DNA of 64,000 nucleotides from Alteromonas sp. KC3 (GTDB lineage Bacteria; Pseudomonadota; Gammaproteobacteria; Enterobacterales; Alteromonadaceae), in the NCBI RefSeq assembly GCF_016756315.1, contig NZ_AP024235.1:1674001-1738000 (forward strand), written 5' to 3'. Below, one piece after another: positions 24,592 through 30,627 of this stretch; the first letter of the stretch is position 1, and each line of letters opens with the position of its first letter. The notes beneath the pieces are model-generated. The model did not search any database. It had not been told where the DNA came from and saw nothing but the letters and a program-made list of their open reading frames with translations. The position numbers and the translations under genes are program-made.

Positions 24592-24668
<77 letters not shown>

Positions 24669-24925
24669 TCTATTCCTTTTCAAAATCTTCATAAACCTTC
24701 GCCTTAGCACTAGTCCAGTTTCATAACGAATTGACCAAGAAAATAGCTTCGTAAACAGCAATTCGCTCTTCATTGTGTTGAACAGCAAAGACGCTCATGA
24801 CAAGGAGTCGTTTAGTTTTGAAGTAACTACATCTTAACCTTGCATACGGTTGACAATTCTATGCGTCACTTTTTGCCGTATAGTTGTTTCATGCTTACCA
24901 AACGTAAACTTTCGAAAGTAAGCAC

Positions 24926-26005
24926 ATGCAAAACATTCAAACTGAACAAATTAAAATTCACGTTATTGGTGTAGGCGGTTGTGGCGGTAATGCAGTGAAC
25001 AACATGGCCAGTCTTTGTGCGCATGACAATATTAGGTTTACCGCTGTTAACACCGATATCGCTGCGTTGCATCGATGCTCAAATCATGAAGTGTTATTGA
25101 TAGGGGAGGCAACAACTAAAGGGTATGGAGCTGGGGCTAACCCGGATGTCGCAAGCGATGCCGCCATTCAGAGTAAAGATGCTTTAACGACATTAATTAA
25201 AGATGCTGACCTTATCATCATTATTGCAGGCCTAGGTGGCGGCACAGGAAGCGGCGCAACGCCAATCCTGATAGATTTAGCCAAAGAGAGCGATATCGAT
25301 GTGATGTGTTTTGTTACGCTTCCTTTCAAGGCTGAAGGAGGCAAGCGAAGCGACATTGCTAGAAACGCGCTTGAGACAATACGAAGCAAAGCGAATGCTA
25401 CGCTAGTTATGTCTAACGATTCATTGCTTTCTGCACTAGATGAAACCGTAGGGCTTCTTTCTGCATTTCGTCATTGTGACACTCAAATGCATAAAATTGT
25501 CGAAGCCATTATCGTAATGCTTACAAACACGGGTTATATCAACGTCGATATCAATGATTTCAGTCATATTCTCTCTCTTGAGGGAGAGACTGCGCTAGGC
25601 GTGGGTATTGCTGAAGATGACAGTTTATTAAGCGCAGCATTAAAGCGCGCCTTAGAAAACCCATTAGTCGACAAACAGAATATAATAGGGGCGCAAGGCG
25701 TTATTGCGCAGCTAACGTGCAAAGAAGAGCCCAGTTTAGCTATGTATGAAGAAATGCTAGCTACCCTCCAATCTTTAGTCGATGGCCCTCAAACTCTTAT
25801 TATTACTGGCGTAACGTTATCGCCAGAACTACCACATTTTGGTGAAGTCTTAGTTATCGCCACGGGTGTGCCTTCAAGTGAACAAAGCTTTGAAGAAGAG
25901 AAAAATGTGATACCTATGAAGCAAGCATCCACATCATTGAGAAAGGACGCGGCATACTTGGAAATACCTGCTTTTGTGAGGTTGCAGGGTAGGGATTTAA
26001 ATTAA
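24926..26005 (+). CDS. FtsZ-like tubulin homologue, divergent stand-alone paralogue
   Basis: The 359-residue protein has the FtsZ core: VIGVGGCGGNAVNNM near residue 14, FTAVNTD near residue 38, TKGYGAGANPD near residue 64, the tubulin signature GGGTGSG at 104-110, PFKAEGGKR near residue 133, and a T7 loop NVDIND at 206-211 that keeps the catalytic Asn/Asp pattern. After the core comes a short linker of about 28 residues and then YLEIPAFVRLQ at 344-354, which matches the conserved FtsZ C-terminal peptide (E. coli DIPAFLRKQ) that binds FtsA, ZipA and MinC. It is outside any division gene cluster and its sequence is clearly divergent, so I infer a second FtsZ. The ribosome site is weak. Its stop overlaps the convergent WYL gene by 4 bases. 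Confidence 0.88.
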   Translation: MQNIQTEQIKIHVIGVGGCGGNAVNNMASLCAHDNIRFTAVNTDIAALHRCSNHEVLLIGEATTKGYGAGANPDVASDAAIQSKDALTTLIKDADLIIIIAGLGGGTGSGATPILIDLAKESDIDVMCFVTLPFKAEGGKRSDIARNALETIRSKANATLVMSNDSLLSALDETVGLLSAFRHCDTQMHKIVEAIIVMLTNTGYINVDINDFSHILSLEGETALGVGIAEDDSLLSAALKRALENPLVDKQNIIGAQGVIAQLTCKEEPSLAMYEEMLATLQSLVDGPQTLIITGVTLSPELPHFGEVLVIATGVPSSEQSFEEEKNVIPMKQASTSLRKDAAYLEIPAFVRLQGRDLN

Positions 26006-27042
26006 TCAGAAAACAACGATTTATTTTGCGCTGCTTCTTCCTGATAAGCGAAGTACAACCTTTCAGACAGTTTAACAAAATACTGCCGCAGTTTTTGAGG
26101 GGCTAGGATCTCGATGTTATCGCCCAAGCCTCTCAAAAAGGCGCGCAGTTTGTTGGTGTCTTTCACCGTCGCGGTCAATACGGATTTATCTGATTGAAGA
26201 GATGGGGTTATTACTTGATCATCACTGAGTTTATAGCCGTGAAGCAAAAATAACGCGTTATTTTTAACCAATAACTTAAGCTCAATGTCTTCTTTTTTGT
26301 TAGCCGACAACGTTTGAACACTTTCTAGCTCACCAAATTCTTGTTGGCAGTCTTCATCGGTAACGGTAACGTTTCTAACAAATTGTAACGGCAACGCGTA
26401 GCGTCTTTTGTGCAGCGAACCAAAAGTACACACAAAAAGTTGTCGACCATCTTGTTTCACCAGTCCCATAGGGTTAACTCTGTCGTAGTGCTTCCAAACC
26501 ATTTCGTTTCCGCCGCTAAAAATACGCTTAATATCGGCAGAGATTTGTTTTCTAAAAAAGATTGCACTTTTTAACCGTTCAAACGAAGCCGCATCTATCT
26601 CTGGAGGGATGAGTGGTTGGGAAACTTGCGAATCTGCCACCGATCTAAGCCAGTTTGTAAGTAACGAGTCACTATCTTGCTCTAAGACCTGGCTCGCTTT
26701 TGCAAAGTAAGGCTGCATTTCTTTAAGCGTAGAATTTGGTAGTGTGGCACCTGATTGTTCAAGTACCTTAAACGCAAGCGCAGTATTGCCGTCCATTAAG
26801 CTTAAATTGAGTTTCTTAAAATTCGCGTTTATAAACCAGCCGTAGGGTTTCGAACGCTTATCAACTTCTAAACCAAATAGCCCAATGTTTTCTAGGCTGA
26901 CTAAGTCCCGCTGCACCGTGCGCATATCAATATTGTGATGACCGCAGTTTTGTAGATTTTCAAAAATTTGGCGGCTTGAAACTTTTCTGGGCGCAGAAGG
27001 CACAAATTGAAGGATGTCGAGCTTTCGTTGAAATGCACTCAT
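26002..27042 (-). CDS. WYL-domain transcriptional regulator
   Basis: The 346-residue protein has an N-terminal winged helix (residues 1-75: RKLDILQFVP, then MRTVQRDLVSLENIGLFGLEV), a middle region, and a WYL-type domain near residues 140-215 with HYDRVNPMGLVKQDGRQLFVCTF, in which the name-giving WYL tripeptide is not literally kept. A C-terminal WCX-like part follows, ending with LRAFLRGLGDNIEILAPQKLR. WYL regulators sense nucleic-acid or nucleotide ligands and often control DNA-damage, defence or stress genes. It is tail-to-tail with the FtsZ-like gene with a 4-base overlap, so regulation of that gene is possible but not shown. Confidence 0.88.
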   Translation of the reverse strand: MSAFQRKLDILQFVPSAPRKVSSRQIFENLQNCGHHNIDMRTVQRDLVSLENIGLFGLEVDKRSKPYGWFINANFKKLNLSLMDGNTALAFKVLEQSGATLPNSTLKEMQPYFAKASQVLEQDSDSLLTNWLRSVADSQVSQPLIPPEIDAASFERLKSAIFFRKQISADIKRIFSGGNEMVWKHYDRVNPMGLVKQDGRQLFVCTFGSLHKRRYALPLQFVRNVTVTDEDCQQEFGELESVQTLSANKKEDIELKLLVKNNALFLLHGYKLSDDQVITPSLQSDKSVLTATVKDTNKLRAFLRGLGDNIEILAPQKLRQYFVKLSERLYFAYQEEAAQNKSLFSD

Positions 27043-27163
27043 TGTGGCAAACTTGCTTTAGCGATTGTGAACTCACCATAGCATAGAGACCGCATACGAC
27101 AAAAATTGTCGCATGCTAAATTGTTACAGTGAATAACGCCGCAATCGTCGTGTTTTATCGCAC

Positions 27164-28243
27164 TTACACCTGTGTTTGTGGTGCATTAATGTTTGATAAT
27201 TCGCATAGAACGTCGATAAACGCTTTAACAGACGCGTGCGGAGCAGTCTCTTGCATGGTGTGATATCCAGAACTTGGTACTTGCAACGTGGTGCCATCTA
27301 CCAGCCCCTGCGATGCAGCGACGATTCGACCTAATTCGGTTGAGCCTAGTGAATGTTCACTTTCACCGTTGGCAATGCGTTCTTTATTTAATTCTCGAAC
27401 GTAGTCGTCCTTGTATAAATAGCGATAACCCAGCGTTTCACAGGTTGTAGCAAGCTTGGCAGTTAGCGCTTCATTGAATTTCGCGTTTGCGTCTTCGTGG
27501 CGTAGCACCAAATGATGTGCAGAAGCTGCTGCAAAATCTGGCATAGGGCTGGTGTCTAGCACAAATAACTGATTGGTTGAGCCACCAAATCGTCGAAACC
27601 ACTCAAGCAGGTAGCGCCAGCTTTTTCCGGCCTCTTCCTGAGCTGTAAAAAACGCGGTGCCCGTAAAGCCGAGTTCAAATAAATAGATCATTACTGCCGC
27701 CGATAGGACATTATCGAGCTGGCCCACAAGCGCGTCTTCGGTCACTTTGAGCTTGTCTACCATGGCTATGGGGGTGCCTGCTACCACATGTTCAAGGCCT
27801 TCAAGTTCAAAAATAAGATTGTTGCGAAATTCGCAGATCTCAGAGCCCTTGATATGCCCTCGGCCGCGGTATGCGCCTGTCCAAGGCTCATAGGCAAACA
27901 CGGGAGCATTGACAAATCGCCCTTCAATTTTTTTCATTAGCTGTTCACTAACAGAATTTCCGAGTAAGTCCGAGCGCGCTCCGGCAACAAATGCCGCATA
28001 TTGAAATTCGTTAGGACCTGTACAAATAAGTCCGTGGCGGTCGATATGGGCTGAAAGCATGATACTGTGAGGGTCGCTTCCTTGAGCAACCAGCAGGCCT
28101 TCATACCATGTTACCTTTGCTCCGCGTTCTTCCAACTCTCGTTGCAATACTCGAAAGAAGGTGTGCTCTGCACCAACTACACTGGGTTCGCGCATCAGCA
28201 AAGAGAGTAATTCGACAAACGATGATGGCAATAGACTATTCAT
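27164..28243 (-). CDS. M42/M20-type metallopeptidase
   Basis: The 359-residue protein resembles M42 aminopeptidases: first zinc ligand in LSAHIDRHG near residue 60, bridging Asp in GQLDNVLSAA near residue 175, catalytic Glu pair in TAQEEAGKSW near residue 200, a further Asp in VLDTSPM near residue 227 and a His in SSGYHTMQETAPH near residue 330. The set is complete for a dinuclear zinc enzyme releasing N-terminal residues from peptides. No signal peptide is present, so it is cytoplasmic. It lies upstream of nothing co-directional that it clearly serves; the saccharopine dehydrogenase-like gene precedes it by 77 bases. Confidence 0.85.
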   Translation of the reverse strand: MNSLLPSSFVELLSLLMREPSVVGAEHTFFRVLQRELEERGAKVTWYEGLLVAQGSDPHSIMLSAHIDRHGLICTGPNEFQYAAFVAGARSDLLGNSVSEQLMKKIEGRFVNAPVFAYEPWTGAYRGRGHIKGSEICEFRNNLIFELEGLEHVVAGTPIAMVDKLKVTEDALVGQLDNVLSAAVMIYLFELGFTGTAFFTAQEEAGKSWRYLLEWFRRFGGSTNQLFVLDTSPMPDFAAASAHHLVLRHEDANAKFNEALTAKLATTCETLGYRYLYKDDYVRELNKERIANGESEHSLGSTELGRIVAASQGLVDGTTLQVPSSGYHTMQETAPHASVKAFIDVLCELSNINAPQTQV

Positions 28244-28320
28244 TAGGGTACCAATAAAAGAATAAAAAAACGTAATAGCTTGTTATCTATAAAAGGTCAA
28301 AGACTATTTACGTTTGTAAT

Positions 28321-29532
28321 TTACTGACTACTCACTTCTTCAACTATCACGCCAGCGTGCTCGGCAAGCCGCTTGATTAAGTTGTCGTTTAGCAGTGATG
28401 CAGGCGTCCAAAATCCGCCCTGTGTGTCTACACTATCATTTGCAAGGCAAAGTCCTGCTTGTGTAATCATTTTGGCCGTAGAGCCATACCCCGGATCTCT
28501 ATCGCCCAAGACTTTGACTTCAATCTTTTCACCGTTGGCAAGGGTGCCATAAAAGCGCATATCATACATTCCATTAAGCTGCTCTTCTTTACTTGGTCCT
28601 TCTCCCGGTTTGGGTAGCACAAATTTTTCGAGAAGTATTCTTAATGGCGATATATTCGCCGCCACCATAAATGCACCTAGGCCAAGTGTCGTCTTTTTGG
28701 CAATACTCTTGTTTTTGGCAGACATGGCCTCGTCGTATCTGAAGTTTTCACCGTACATATTCCCTAATAGAGCATTGCTGCGGTGAACAACACGTTCGTT
28801 GATAGATGCCATCACAAATGGCATGGTCCACATCTTTAACTCATCGTCATACTCTGCACTTTTGTGATTTTTCTGCCGCACTGAATACGGATGCCTCTCG
28901 GGACACAGTACATAAGGGTTCACTAAAGCTTTACGTAAGCCTGGATCTTTTTTTGCTTCCTTTAAAACGTTGAGCAAGCTGGCAACTGTTCCGCCTGACG
29001 CTCCACCACGTATTCGGTGCACACGCATTTTAATTTGTGTGGCTGGTTTGCCTGTTTTCTCGATGGCCAACCTTTGTAGGTGATACACGCCTAAATCAGA
29101 GGGAATAGAATCAAAGCCTGTACAGTTAACCAGCCGGGCGCCACTTTTTTGCGCCGCACTGTGGTACTTGTCCACCATGCGTTTTATCCACTGAGGTTCG
29201 CCAGTTAAGTCGCAATAAGCAGTGCCTGTGTTTACGCACGCTTTTACAACGCTCTCGCCATAGAGCGCATAAGGACCCACTGTCGTGAGCACTACCTTGG
29301 TTTGTTCGCACATCGCGTGTAAACCATCTTCATCGTCAGCGTTAACGACAACATGGGGCACGTCTATACCAACTCTTTGCTTCACTTCAATAAGTTTTTG
29401 TTCACTGCGACCTGCCATCGCCCACGTTACTTGTTCATCCTTATAAGTGGCAAGGTACTCACAAATAATTTGCCCAACAAAAGAGGTTGCGCCATACAAC
29501 ACAAGATCATAAACGTTTTTTTCGTTTGCCAT
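28321..29532 (-). CDS. Saccharopine dehydrogenase-like oxidoreductase
   Basis: The 403-residue protein starts with a Rossmann fold, YDLVLYGATSFVGQIICEYLA, near residue 8, followed by WAMAGRSEQKL, and contains TGFDSIPSDLGVYHL near residue 135 and a C-terminal GDRDPGYGSTAKMITQAGLCL block near residue 342. These are features of the bacterial saccharopine dehydrogenase/trans-acting enoyl reductase group, related to mammalian SCCPDH and mycobacterial Rv2449c-type proteins; true lysine metabolism is unlikely. Substrate unknown, perhaps a lipid. The ATG at 29532 has GGAG six bases upstream and is preferred to an ATG 12 codons earlier. Confidence 0.85.
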   Translation of the reverse strand: MANEKNVYDLVLYGATSFVGQIICEYLATYKDEQVTWAMAGRSEQKLIEVKQRVGIDVPHVVVNADDEDGLHAMCEQTKVVLTTVGPYALYGESVVKACVNTGTAYCDLTGEPQWIKRMVDKYHSAAQKSGARLVNCTGFDSIPSDLGVYHLQRLAIEKTGKPATQIKMRVHRIRGGASGGTVASLLNVLKEAKKDPGLRKALVNPYVLCPERHPYSVRQKNHKSAEYDDELKMWTMPFVMASINERVVHRSNALLGNMYGENFRYDEAMSAKNKSIAKKTTLGLGAFMVAANISPLRILLEKFVLPKPGEGPSKEEQLNGMYDMRFYGTLANGEKIEVKVLGDRDPGYGSTAKMITQAGLCLANDSVDTQGGFWTPASLLNDNLIKRLAEHAGVIVEEVSSQ

Positions 29533-29682
29533 AACGGCTCCAAATTGTTCTTTTTTAACAGGTTGCATGTTTAAATGAAATTGCGCAACGCATAGGGTAT
29601 TTTATTTTTAAATAAGAACGTATAAGCCGTTTGAAGGGAAGAGTTCAGTTTTCTGAACAGTGCCGTTGTGGGCTTTCCTTAC

Positions 29683-30627
29683 TCATGTAGTGCGATTAAG
29701 AGTATTAAAAACAGCAATGCGATTTCTTCCATCTGATTTTGCTTTGTACAGCGCTTCATCTGCGTCGGTAAACAGCGTCTCAAAACTGTCGGGCTTAAGT
29801 TTAGTGCAGATACCAATAGATGCTGTAACGCTAATGCTATTGCCGTCTACCTCGGTCACACTTTGTGCCAGTGAACTGCGAATGCGCTCAGCAACTTCAT
29901 AGGCGACGTTAAGATCCGCCTCAGACATAAACACCGCAAATTCTTCCCCGCCCAATCTACCCACAATATCGTATTGACGGGTAGATTGACGCAAAATGGC
30001 AGCAGTGTGCTTTAGCACATGATCGCCTGCTAAGTGGCCATAAGTATCGTTAATGCGTTTAAAGTGGTCTAAGTCTATGACTAACATTGTGGCCGACGCT
30101 TGGTTTCGCTGAACGCGTGCTAGCTCAGTTTCAACGGCATCTACGAAAGAGCGGCGGTTGGCTAATTGGGTGAGTTCATCGGTAAGCGCAAGTTTCTTAA
30201 GCTGAACTAAGGAGCGTTGCAGTGTACTTTCAGTCACTTTCTGTTTTGAAATGTCTTTCGCTTGTAACAGCAACTCGCCTGAGTCGAGAAGATGTTCTGA
30301 AAAAAGCATCCAGCGTCCATTGACTAAGTCGACCTCAAACATCCGGTGTGGGCGTTTTCGTCTCACACTTCTTACATATTCAAGCCAGCTCTCTATGTGG
30401 TCGGTTTCAATGTTTATACCGCGTTTTTGGTCATATGCATGGCGGACAAGTTGCTCAAAGCTCCAGTATTCAACTTTGCAGTTTGTTGCACAGAATATGT
30501 CTAAGAATACATAGTTGGCATATAGGAGTTTATCGTCAGGACAAAAAATGGCGTAGCCGTCCTTACTCGATTCTATGAACGTTTGTATGAGTTGATTAAA
30601 ATTACAACCAGGCGCAATCACAACCAC
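29683..30627 (-). CDS. Diguanylate cyclase with N-terminal PAS-like sensor
   Basis: The 314-residue soluble protein has a PAS-like domain (residues 10-130; FIESSKDGYAIFCPDDKLLYAN) and a GGDEF domain from about 150. LTDELTQLANRRSF, DLDHFKRINDTYGHLAGD and the active-site GGEEF are all present. The inhibitory site RxxD is present as RQYD five residues before GGEEF, so product feedback is expected. It makes c-di-GMP from two GTP. The start is a GTG with AAGG upstream. It is divergent from the PAS-GGDEF-EAL gene, so the two may share a control region and act on the same c-di-GMP pool. Confidence 0.92.
   Translation of the reverse strand: MVVIAPGCNFNQLIQTFIESSKDGYAIFCPDDKLLYANYVFLDIFCATNCKVEYWSFEQLVRHAYDQKRGINIETDHIESWLEYVRSVRRKRPHRMFEVDLVNGRWMLFSEHLLDSGELLLQAKDISKQKVTESTLQRSLVQLKKLALTDELTQLANRRSFVDAVETELARVQRNQASATMLVIDLDHFKRINDTYGHLAGDHVLKHTAAILRQSTRQYDIVGRLGGEEFAVFMSEADLNVAYEVAERIRSSLAQSVTEVDGNSISVTASIGICTKLKPDSFETLFTDADEALYKAKSDGRNRIAVFNTLNRTT

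Follow-up and report, generated by a model that had tools for sequence, protein, structure and literature searches.

The stretch analysed here, a window of 64,000 nucleotides from Alteromonas sp. KC3, carries a second ftsZ gene, hereafter ftsZ2 (24926..26005, forward strand, 359 amino acids). It converges on wyl, the gene of a transcription regulator probably of the winged helix-turn-helix (wHTH)-WYL-WCX type (26002..27042, reverse strand, 346 amino acids), and the two stop codons overlap. With moderate confidence, we read this pair as a mobile two-gene stress module whose inducible FtsZ enters, and probably restrains, the Z ring. A second FtsZ behind a switch of the DNA-damage type suggests a built-in way of altering cell division under stress. 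Handles beginning with G, L and f denote genomes, loci and families, respectively; G000 is the window's genome.

The assignment of ftsZ2 is based on its open reading frame (ORF), Pfam domains, a structure model with its fold match, and a tree. Both Pfam domains exceed their cut-offs (Tubulin GTPase, 131 bits; FtsZ_C, 45.1 bits). The forward strand encodes the T4 G-box GGGTGSG (25235..25255, residues 104-110), the T7 catalytic loop NVDIND (25541..25558, residues 206-211) and the C-terminal tail YLEIPAFVRLQ (25955..25987, residues 344-354). From these features the preliminary description had recognised an FtsZ with intact GTPase motifs and a partner-binding tail, and the description holds in an alignment of 42 FtsZ2, 37 canonical and 9 other rows (L100, L067 and L082 removed). 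In E. coli numbering, which we take to be anchored on N207 of that protein, N207, D209 and D212 pass a 97% conservation threshold in both the FtsZ2 and the canonical rows. The same is true of the G-box (as GGGTG(T/S)G), of R142, and of P379 and R383 in the tail, and an FtsA/ZipA-type peptide appears to be present. Position 21 separates the two groups completely (Cys in 42/42 FtsZ2 rows, Gly in 37/37 canonical rows). In the structure model the protein is predicted to fold like a normal FtsZ; confidence is low in the linker, and the tail forms a short helix (residues 349-354). Purifying selection is strong on both genes: across the window, L035 and L036 copies, the ratio of nonsynonymous to synonymous substitution rates (dN/dS) is 0.05-0.075 for ftsZ2 and 0.03-0.06 for wyl, while pairs with the more distant L037 are saturated or nearly so.

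The KC3 genome is a single contig of 4,561,647 bp, assigned to Alteromonas through 91% identity to an A. mediterranea cluster, and has two Tubulin/FtsZ matches. One is FtsZ2; the other is the canonical ftsZ, elsewhere in the genome and 3' of an FtsA-like ORF (identified by eye). The preliminary description had supposed a canonical copy elsewhere, with this one outside the division and cell wall (dcw) cluster, and the genome search that it proposed thus also answered its own counter-case of a genome with no second ftsZ. Its further claim, that the protein is a divergent FtsZ and not the normal orthologue, is borne out by the tree. All 39 FtsZ2 rows fall on one side of a branch (100/99), apart from canonical gammaproteobacterial and other-phylum FtsZ, and that side includes relatives from five family groups besides the window's own. 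The tree used 72 of 91 rows, after dropping near-duplicates, one viral row and the misnamed row L100 (really the FtsZ2 of G154). FtsZ2 shares 30-32% identity with the canonical FtsZ of the same genome and scores 252.5 bits against the NCBIfam ftsZ equivalog TIGR00065, below the cut-off of 295.2, compared with 447 for the canonical copy; one f6 FtsZ2 (313.1 bits) and one f25 FtsZ2 (368 bits) exceed that cut-off. To judge from these sequences, FtsZ2 is evidently no recent copy of canonical FtsZ. Long branches and warnings about composition in this tree leave two origins indistinguishable, an old paralogue or a gammaproteobacterial copy that evolves fast, and the long branches prevent dating of the split. 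As a separate observation, the canonical ftsZ of G039 lies in two ORFs (L048 7468-8633); this may be a sequencing error, since FtsZ is normally essential.

FtsZ2 is found in 13 of 59 Alteromonas genomes, all of which keep the canonical ftsZ, and one further genome (G058) has a fragment. In a family-wide search with a Thalassotalea query, at least 16 of 196 genomes, three of them Alteromonas, had a second FtsZ at more than 280 bits, and an order-wide search of 394 genomes added copies in families f2, f6, f20, f21 and f25 among the matches listed. The gene sits on the main chromosome in KC3 and on chromids in Pseudoalteromonas. Degraded versions also occur: besides the G058 fragment, the ftsZ2 of G065 has an internal stop and G073 has a truncated wyl. 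An origin as a phage or plasmid gene found no backing. Viral contigs gave two distant matches (32% and 29%), none of the 24 matching phage records reached 60% identity, and neither did any of the 111 matching plasmid records, the best five of which are large Pseudoalteromonas replicons (37-41%). Other FtsZ-like proteins were seen along the way, namely two distant ones on IMG/VR viral contigs (L066 8118 and L067 7926; 30% and 26% identity to the best row) and a third FtsZ-like protein in G030 (563 amino acids, 25% identity, L050 8162-9853) with a long C-terminal extension and a group of three tRNAs about 3 kb away.

When the ORFs around FtsZ2 loci were clustered, the WYL/WCX gene was the one neighbour that recurred. 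A wyl gene of at least 66% identity is present in 13/13 Alteromonas genomes with FtsZ2 and in 0/46 without, three of the latter carrying relatives at 25-33% identity. More widely, a WYL gene adjoins ftsZ2 or lies within about 1.5 kb of it at 33 of 42 FtsZ2 loci, a count that includes G288, where the WYL gene is only remotely related (26% identity, 130 bits) and about 1.5 kb separate it from a short FtsZ2. The arrangement varies. In family f1 the genes are convergent at 18 of 20 loci and tandem at two; at the loci fetched from f6 (7/7) and f25 (5/5) wyl is directly upstream of ftsZ2 on the same strand; the three Pseudoalteromonas chromids opened all have a wyl-ftsZ2 tandem; and the pair, convergent or tandem, also occurs in Colwellia, Pseudoalteromonas and Oceanimonas. 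Since the linkage persists while the orientation changes, it argues for a functional connection rather than chance proximity, and wyl is best regarded as the dedicated partner of ftsZ2. Nine of the 42 loci have no neighbouring wyl: in G221 the same contig carries it about 14 kb away, the WYL matches of G189 and G134 are weaker (109.9 and 57.3 bits) and lie elsewhere in the genome, and G095, G105, G156, G340, G370 and G293 have no WYL match at an E-value of 1e-5.

In the window, both genes carry a palindromic box in their promoters. De novo motif discovery in the ftsZ2 upstream regions of Alteromonas found one conserved island, similar to TGCGTCA-N5-TGNCGCA, in 13/13 aligned sequences, and a profile built from it located a more perfect version before wyl. 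In the window, the ftsZ2 box (TGCGTCACTTTTTGCCGTA, 24862..24880, forward strand) is centred at 24871, 55 bp before the start codon, and has two mismatches to TRCGAC-N7-GTCGYA. The wyl box (TGCGACAATTTTTGTCGTA, 27095..27113, reverse strand) has perfect arms and is centred at 27104, 62 bp before the start codon. Only after motif discovery did we notice that the boxes share their arms and N7 spacing with the consensus site ATACGAC-N7-GTCGTAT of DriD (PMC12340889).

We scanned 42 FtsZ2 loci (710,791 bp) with TRCGAC-N7-GTCGYA and took as promoter-proximal any match between -220 and +120 relative to a mechanically called ORF start, whether of ftsZ2 or of wyl; for L079 (FtsZ2) and L071-L083 (wyl) the gene coordinates were supplied manually, using previous results. 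With up to two mismatches, a box stands at wyl, ftsZ2 or both in 33/33 loci with a linked wyl and at the ftsZ2 of G221, and at neither start in the eight remaining loci (0/8). Five of the loci with neither linked wyl nor box (L056, L058, L060, L061 and L062) have different neighbours, and in L056, L058 and L060 FtsZ2 is preceded by a gene of 140 amino acids and followed by one that looks peroxiredoxin-like (by eye); at these five loci FtsZ2 seems to have been rewired or freed from WYL. At one mismatch or fewer, 38 of 41 matches fall at ftsZ2 or wyl promoters and three elsewhere; at two or fewer, 55 of 101 do so and 46 do not. The exact core of the wyl box, modelled on the same 13 FtsZ2 genomes in which it was then scanned, occurs once in each of them, once at the G058 remnant and in none of the other 45 genomes of the genus, and its reversed control occurs in none of the 59. 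As these loci are related to one another, none of the counts represents independent trials.

A -10-like hexamer accompanies the box at a fixed distance. In the window it reads CATGCT before ftsZ2 (24890..24895, forward strand) and TATGCT before wyl (27080..27085, reverse strand), in both cases at +19 to +24 from the box centre. When sites are chosen by the box alone, T(+19), A(+20) and T(+24) are present in 23/23 wyl promoters (L042, L045, L046, L057, L072, L078, L080, L081 and L082 left out). Among 25 ftsZ2 promoters, A(+20) and T(+24) are present in all and T(+19) in 13; L046, L057 and L082 were left out, and L077-L081 and L083 fell outside the set, having no ftsZ2 box at two mismatches. Three Pseudoalteromonas loci fetched later have TATGCT at the same place in 3/3, with a box before ftsZ2 only. 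This predicts a -10 hexamer of the TANNNT kind and places the box, whose centre would be near -31 from the predicted transcription start, over the -35 position. DriD sites, too, cover the -35 with unvarying spacing to the -10, and DriD is an activator (PMC12340889). A regulatory link between ftsZ2 and its WYL partner is thus strongly indicated by the promoter sequences.

The box is not confined to FtsZ modules. Among ten WYL loci that are not partners of ftsZ2, five (G051, G022, G017, G054 and G221) are boxed, either at the regulator, at the gene after it or at both; G327 is doubtful, and the other four (G342, G594, G189 and G596) lack boxes. The fixed -10 is less regular at these sites, with TANNNT in 5/10. 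Because half of the non-partner WYL genes examined have such boxes, the box belongs to a type of WYL regulator and not to FtsZ2 alone. The genes that follow the boxed regulators encode a 242-amino-acid protein (G051, G022) or AAA+ ATPases (G017, G221). In G051 and G022, the WYL gene is only remotely related (33% identity), and boxes lie both at this gene and ahead of a following one, which encodes a protein of 241-242 amino acids (L158 2899-3624 and 3702-4760; L159 1092-2912); the G022 version of that protein has no Pfam or NCBIfam match. Two further loci have a boxed double-AAA+ ATPase gene (685 and 719 amino acids) after WYL (L161 1500-4631; L162 958-4330), and the first of these ATPases weakly resembles IteA, an anti-phage ATPase, scoring 125 bits where the cut-off is 510. 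A larger regulon did not emerge. One scan gave 21 places with at most one mismatch compared with 59 in the reversed control, and the two perfect places among the 21 were the wyl box and one inside a gene; another gave 26 sites with at most two mismatches compared with 21. Inspection of 12 and 4 of these sites placed all of them within genes except two with one mismatch, which precede pyrophosphatase-like and dehydrogenase-like genes (by eye).

The pair also moves as a unit. The window and an Alteromonas mediterranea contig (G024) share a block at 24844..27125 (85.6% identity over 2291 columns), and the alignment starts just before one box and ends just after the other. In G024 this block stands alone between a tRNA-Val and a GGDEF/EAL gene. 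Six of the ten tRNA-Val sites fetched from the genus (G001, G021, G022, G029, G012 and G038) have a patatin gene and the tRNA and no FtsZ2, with about 250-270 bp between the tRNA and the GGDEF/EAL gene (by eye). Most of the remaining FtsZ2 genomes in the genus carry the module at other loci. The sequence comparisons evidently mark ftsZ2 and wyl as a mobile two-gene unit present at different genomic sites. Of the two neighbours named in the preliminary description, the WYL regulator proved the meaningful one, a constant partner in the genus with a DriD-type operator at both genes that had earlier been missed. The tRNA-Val(gac) (24592..24668, forward strand) lies outside the module and serves as an insertion-site landmark; it directly flanks the module in 3 of 13 Alteromonas loci, and the idea of a tRNA-targeted island was dropped, since no repeat of the tRNA 3' end was found close to the module, either in the window or in L036. 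The window also has three genes (359, 415 and 314 amino acids; 27164-30627) between the module and the GGDEF/EAL gene that are absent in G024, the 314-amino-acid product having a GGDEF-like motif (by eye); this segment looks to be a further insertion at the tRNA-Val site. On three Pseudoalteromonas chromids (L163-L165) the pair adjoins varying genes, including those of a HipA toxin, McrC and DUF262 proteins, a possible hotspot.

How the module would act can be proposed by analogy. Caulobacter DriD induces didA, a division inhibitor (PMC4211646). The WYL protein would likewise be an activator triggered by a nucleic-acid signal, most likely single-stranded DNA from damaged or stalled replication or from phage. 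Once activated, it would bind the box and help RNA polymerase, and FtsZ2 would then accumulate. Because its GTPase and T7 residues and its FtsA/ZipA-type tail are intact, FtsZ2 could enter the Z ring or form a ring of its own, where it would most likely slow or halt division until the stress passes. FtsZ2 would thus take the place held by SulA in E. coli and by DidA in Caulobacter. SulA was found in 1 of 59 genomes of the genus and not in KC3 (the SulA model was positive only in E. coli among 14 controls), so that the genus apparently has no brake of the SulA type. It is because DriD drives didA, and because such a brake is apparently lacking, that we favour a stress-induced, restraining FtsZ. 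The signal and the effect on division are what we infer; on sequence alone, FtsZ2 may co-polymerise with the normal FtsZ, take its place or block it.

One alternative turns the effect around. The same induced module may supply a replacement FtsZ, so that division continues or resumes while the normal protein is inhibited or degraded by stress or by a phage inhibitor. FtsZ2 retains what a working FtsZ is expected to have, is under strong purifying selection, and departs from the normal protein in the T7 loop (mostly NDF for ADV) and elsewhere; an inhibitor fitted to FtsZ might therefore miss it. Yet SulA, the best-known such inhibitor, is nearly absent from the genus, which leaves little ground for a SulA-resistant or bypass FtsZ, and the canonical gene persists in every FtsZ2 genome of the genus. 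We regard replacement as unlikely.

We give a similarly low probability to an anti-phage module, in which the WYL protein senses phage single-stranded DNA and FtsZ2 stops division or poisons the cell abortively. WYL regulators have been linked with DNA damage and with defence against phage (PMC10693628). The distribution is patchy and sometimes decayed, the pair is near HipA, McrC or DUF262 genes on the three Pseudoalteromonas chromids (one with PADLOC matches), a neighbour at L073 matches the PADLOC candidate PDC-S01, and two similar WYL-box modules carry the AAA+ ATPases described above, one weakly like IteA. Against this, FtsZ2, three window neighbours and three L035 neighbours gave no match when tested against PADLOC-DB 2.0.0, and the WYL partner matched generic WYL models only.

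Other tubulin/FtsZ paralogues work outside division, and FtsZ2 might be a WYL-regulated cytoskeletal protein for another task, such as positioning of the nucleoid, a chromid or a plasmid. The chromid location in Pseudoalteromonas would suit such a role, whereas the main-chromosome location in KC3 and the division-type tail kept across FtsZ2 do not, and we hold it to be quite improbable. Finally, an ordinary redundant duplicate or drifting relic would account for the broken copies, and is contradicted by the low identity to canonical FtsZ, the tree separation, the dN/dS values and the kept operator, which make it very improbable indeed.

Bacteria are usually taught to have one FtsZ, with DNA damage blocking division via small inhibitors (SulA, SidA, DidA). 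If our reading is true, the Z ring would here be controlled in another way, by a mobile module that brings in a complete second FtsZ governed by a switch of the DNA-damage type. More broadly, the evidence is evenly poised on a larger claim: that this is a horizontally moving, SOS-independent gammaproteobacterial division checkpoint with a dedicated inducible FtsZ effector and a DriD-like WYL switch, and also one case of a wider class of cassettes in which WYL is paired with a boxed effector, the effector slot being filled by FtsZ, an AAA+ ATPase or the 242-amino-acid protein without a Pfam match. The module is directly testable, as the operator marks two promoters in the window's genome, and the box with its fixed -10 provides a sequence handle for finding further WYL-controlled effectors.

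Compared with the canonical FtsZ of the dcw cluster, FtsZ2 is accessory, mobile, wyl-linked and marked by Cys at position 21. The WYL regulators CapW, BrxR, PafBC and SiwR have defence, DNA-repair or dinB-like genes as their known targets, unlike the partner described here, whose predicted target is an FtsZ. A 2023 survey (PMC9871819) records a second ftsZ in few bacteria and places the additional copy outside dcw. Within the open-licence PubMed Central literature on FtsZ with WYL, on second or paralogous FtsZ and on FtsZ in Alteromonas, Moritella, Oceanimonas, Colwellia and Shewanella, we found no description of the ftsZ2-wyl pair among the papers listed. Like FtsZl1 and FtsZl2 (Makarova and Koonin 2010, PMC2875224), FtsZ2 is an extra FtsZ-superfamily protein beside the normal one; unlike them, it is a true FtsZ with FtsZ_C and the tail, and scores 19.1 bits for Tubulin_2, below the cut-off of 27.

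The closest parallel is DriD/didA of Caulobacter crescentus, in which DriD is described as a WYL activator switched on by single-stranded DNA that induces a division inhibitor. That system (PMC4211646, PMC12340889) has in common with the module a WYL/WCX activator, predicted in the module, the palindrome arms with their N7 spacing, a box over -35 at a fixed distance from -10, and a cell-division gene among the targets. The WYL partner would work like DriD, and four of its five significant profile matches in the PDB (E-values 1e-6 to 5e-6) are titled DriD. It is not classed as DriD because Pfam recognises only WCX (at E-values up to 0.001), the WYL domain PF13280 having apparently diverged below recognition. 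Two further differences set the systems apart: regulator and target are adjacent here, and the target is itself an FtsZ, whereas DidA is a small FtsN-binding membrane protein.
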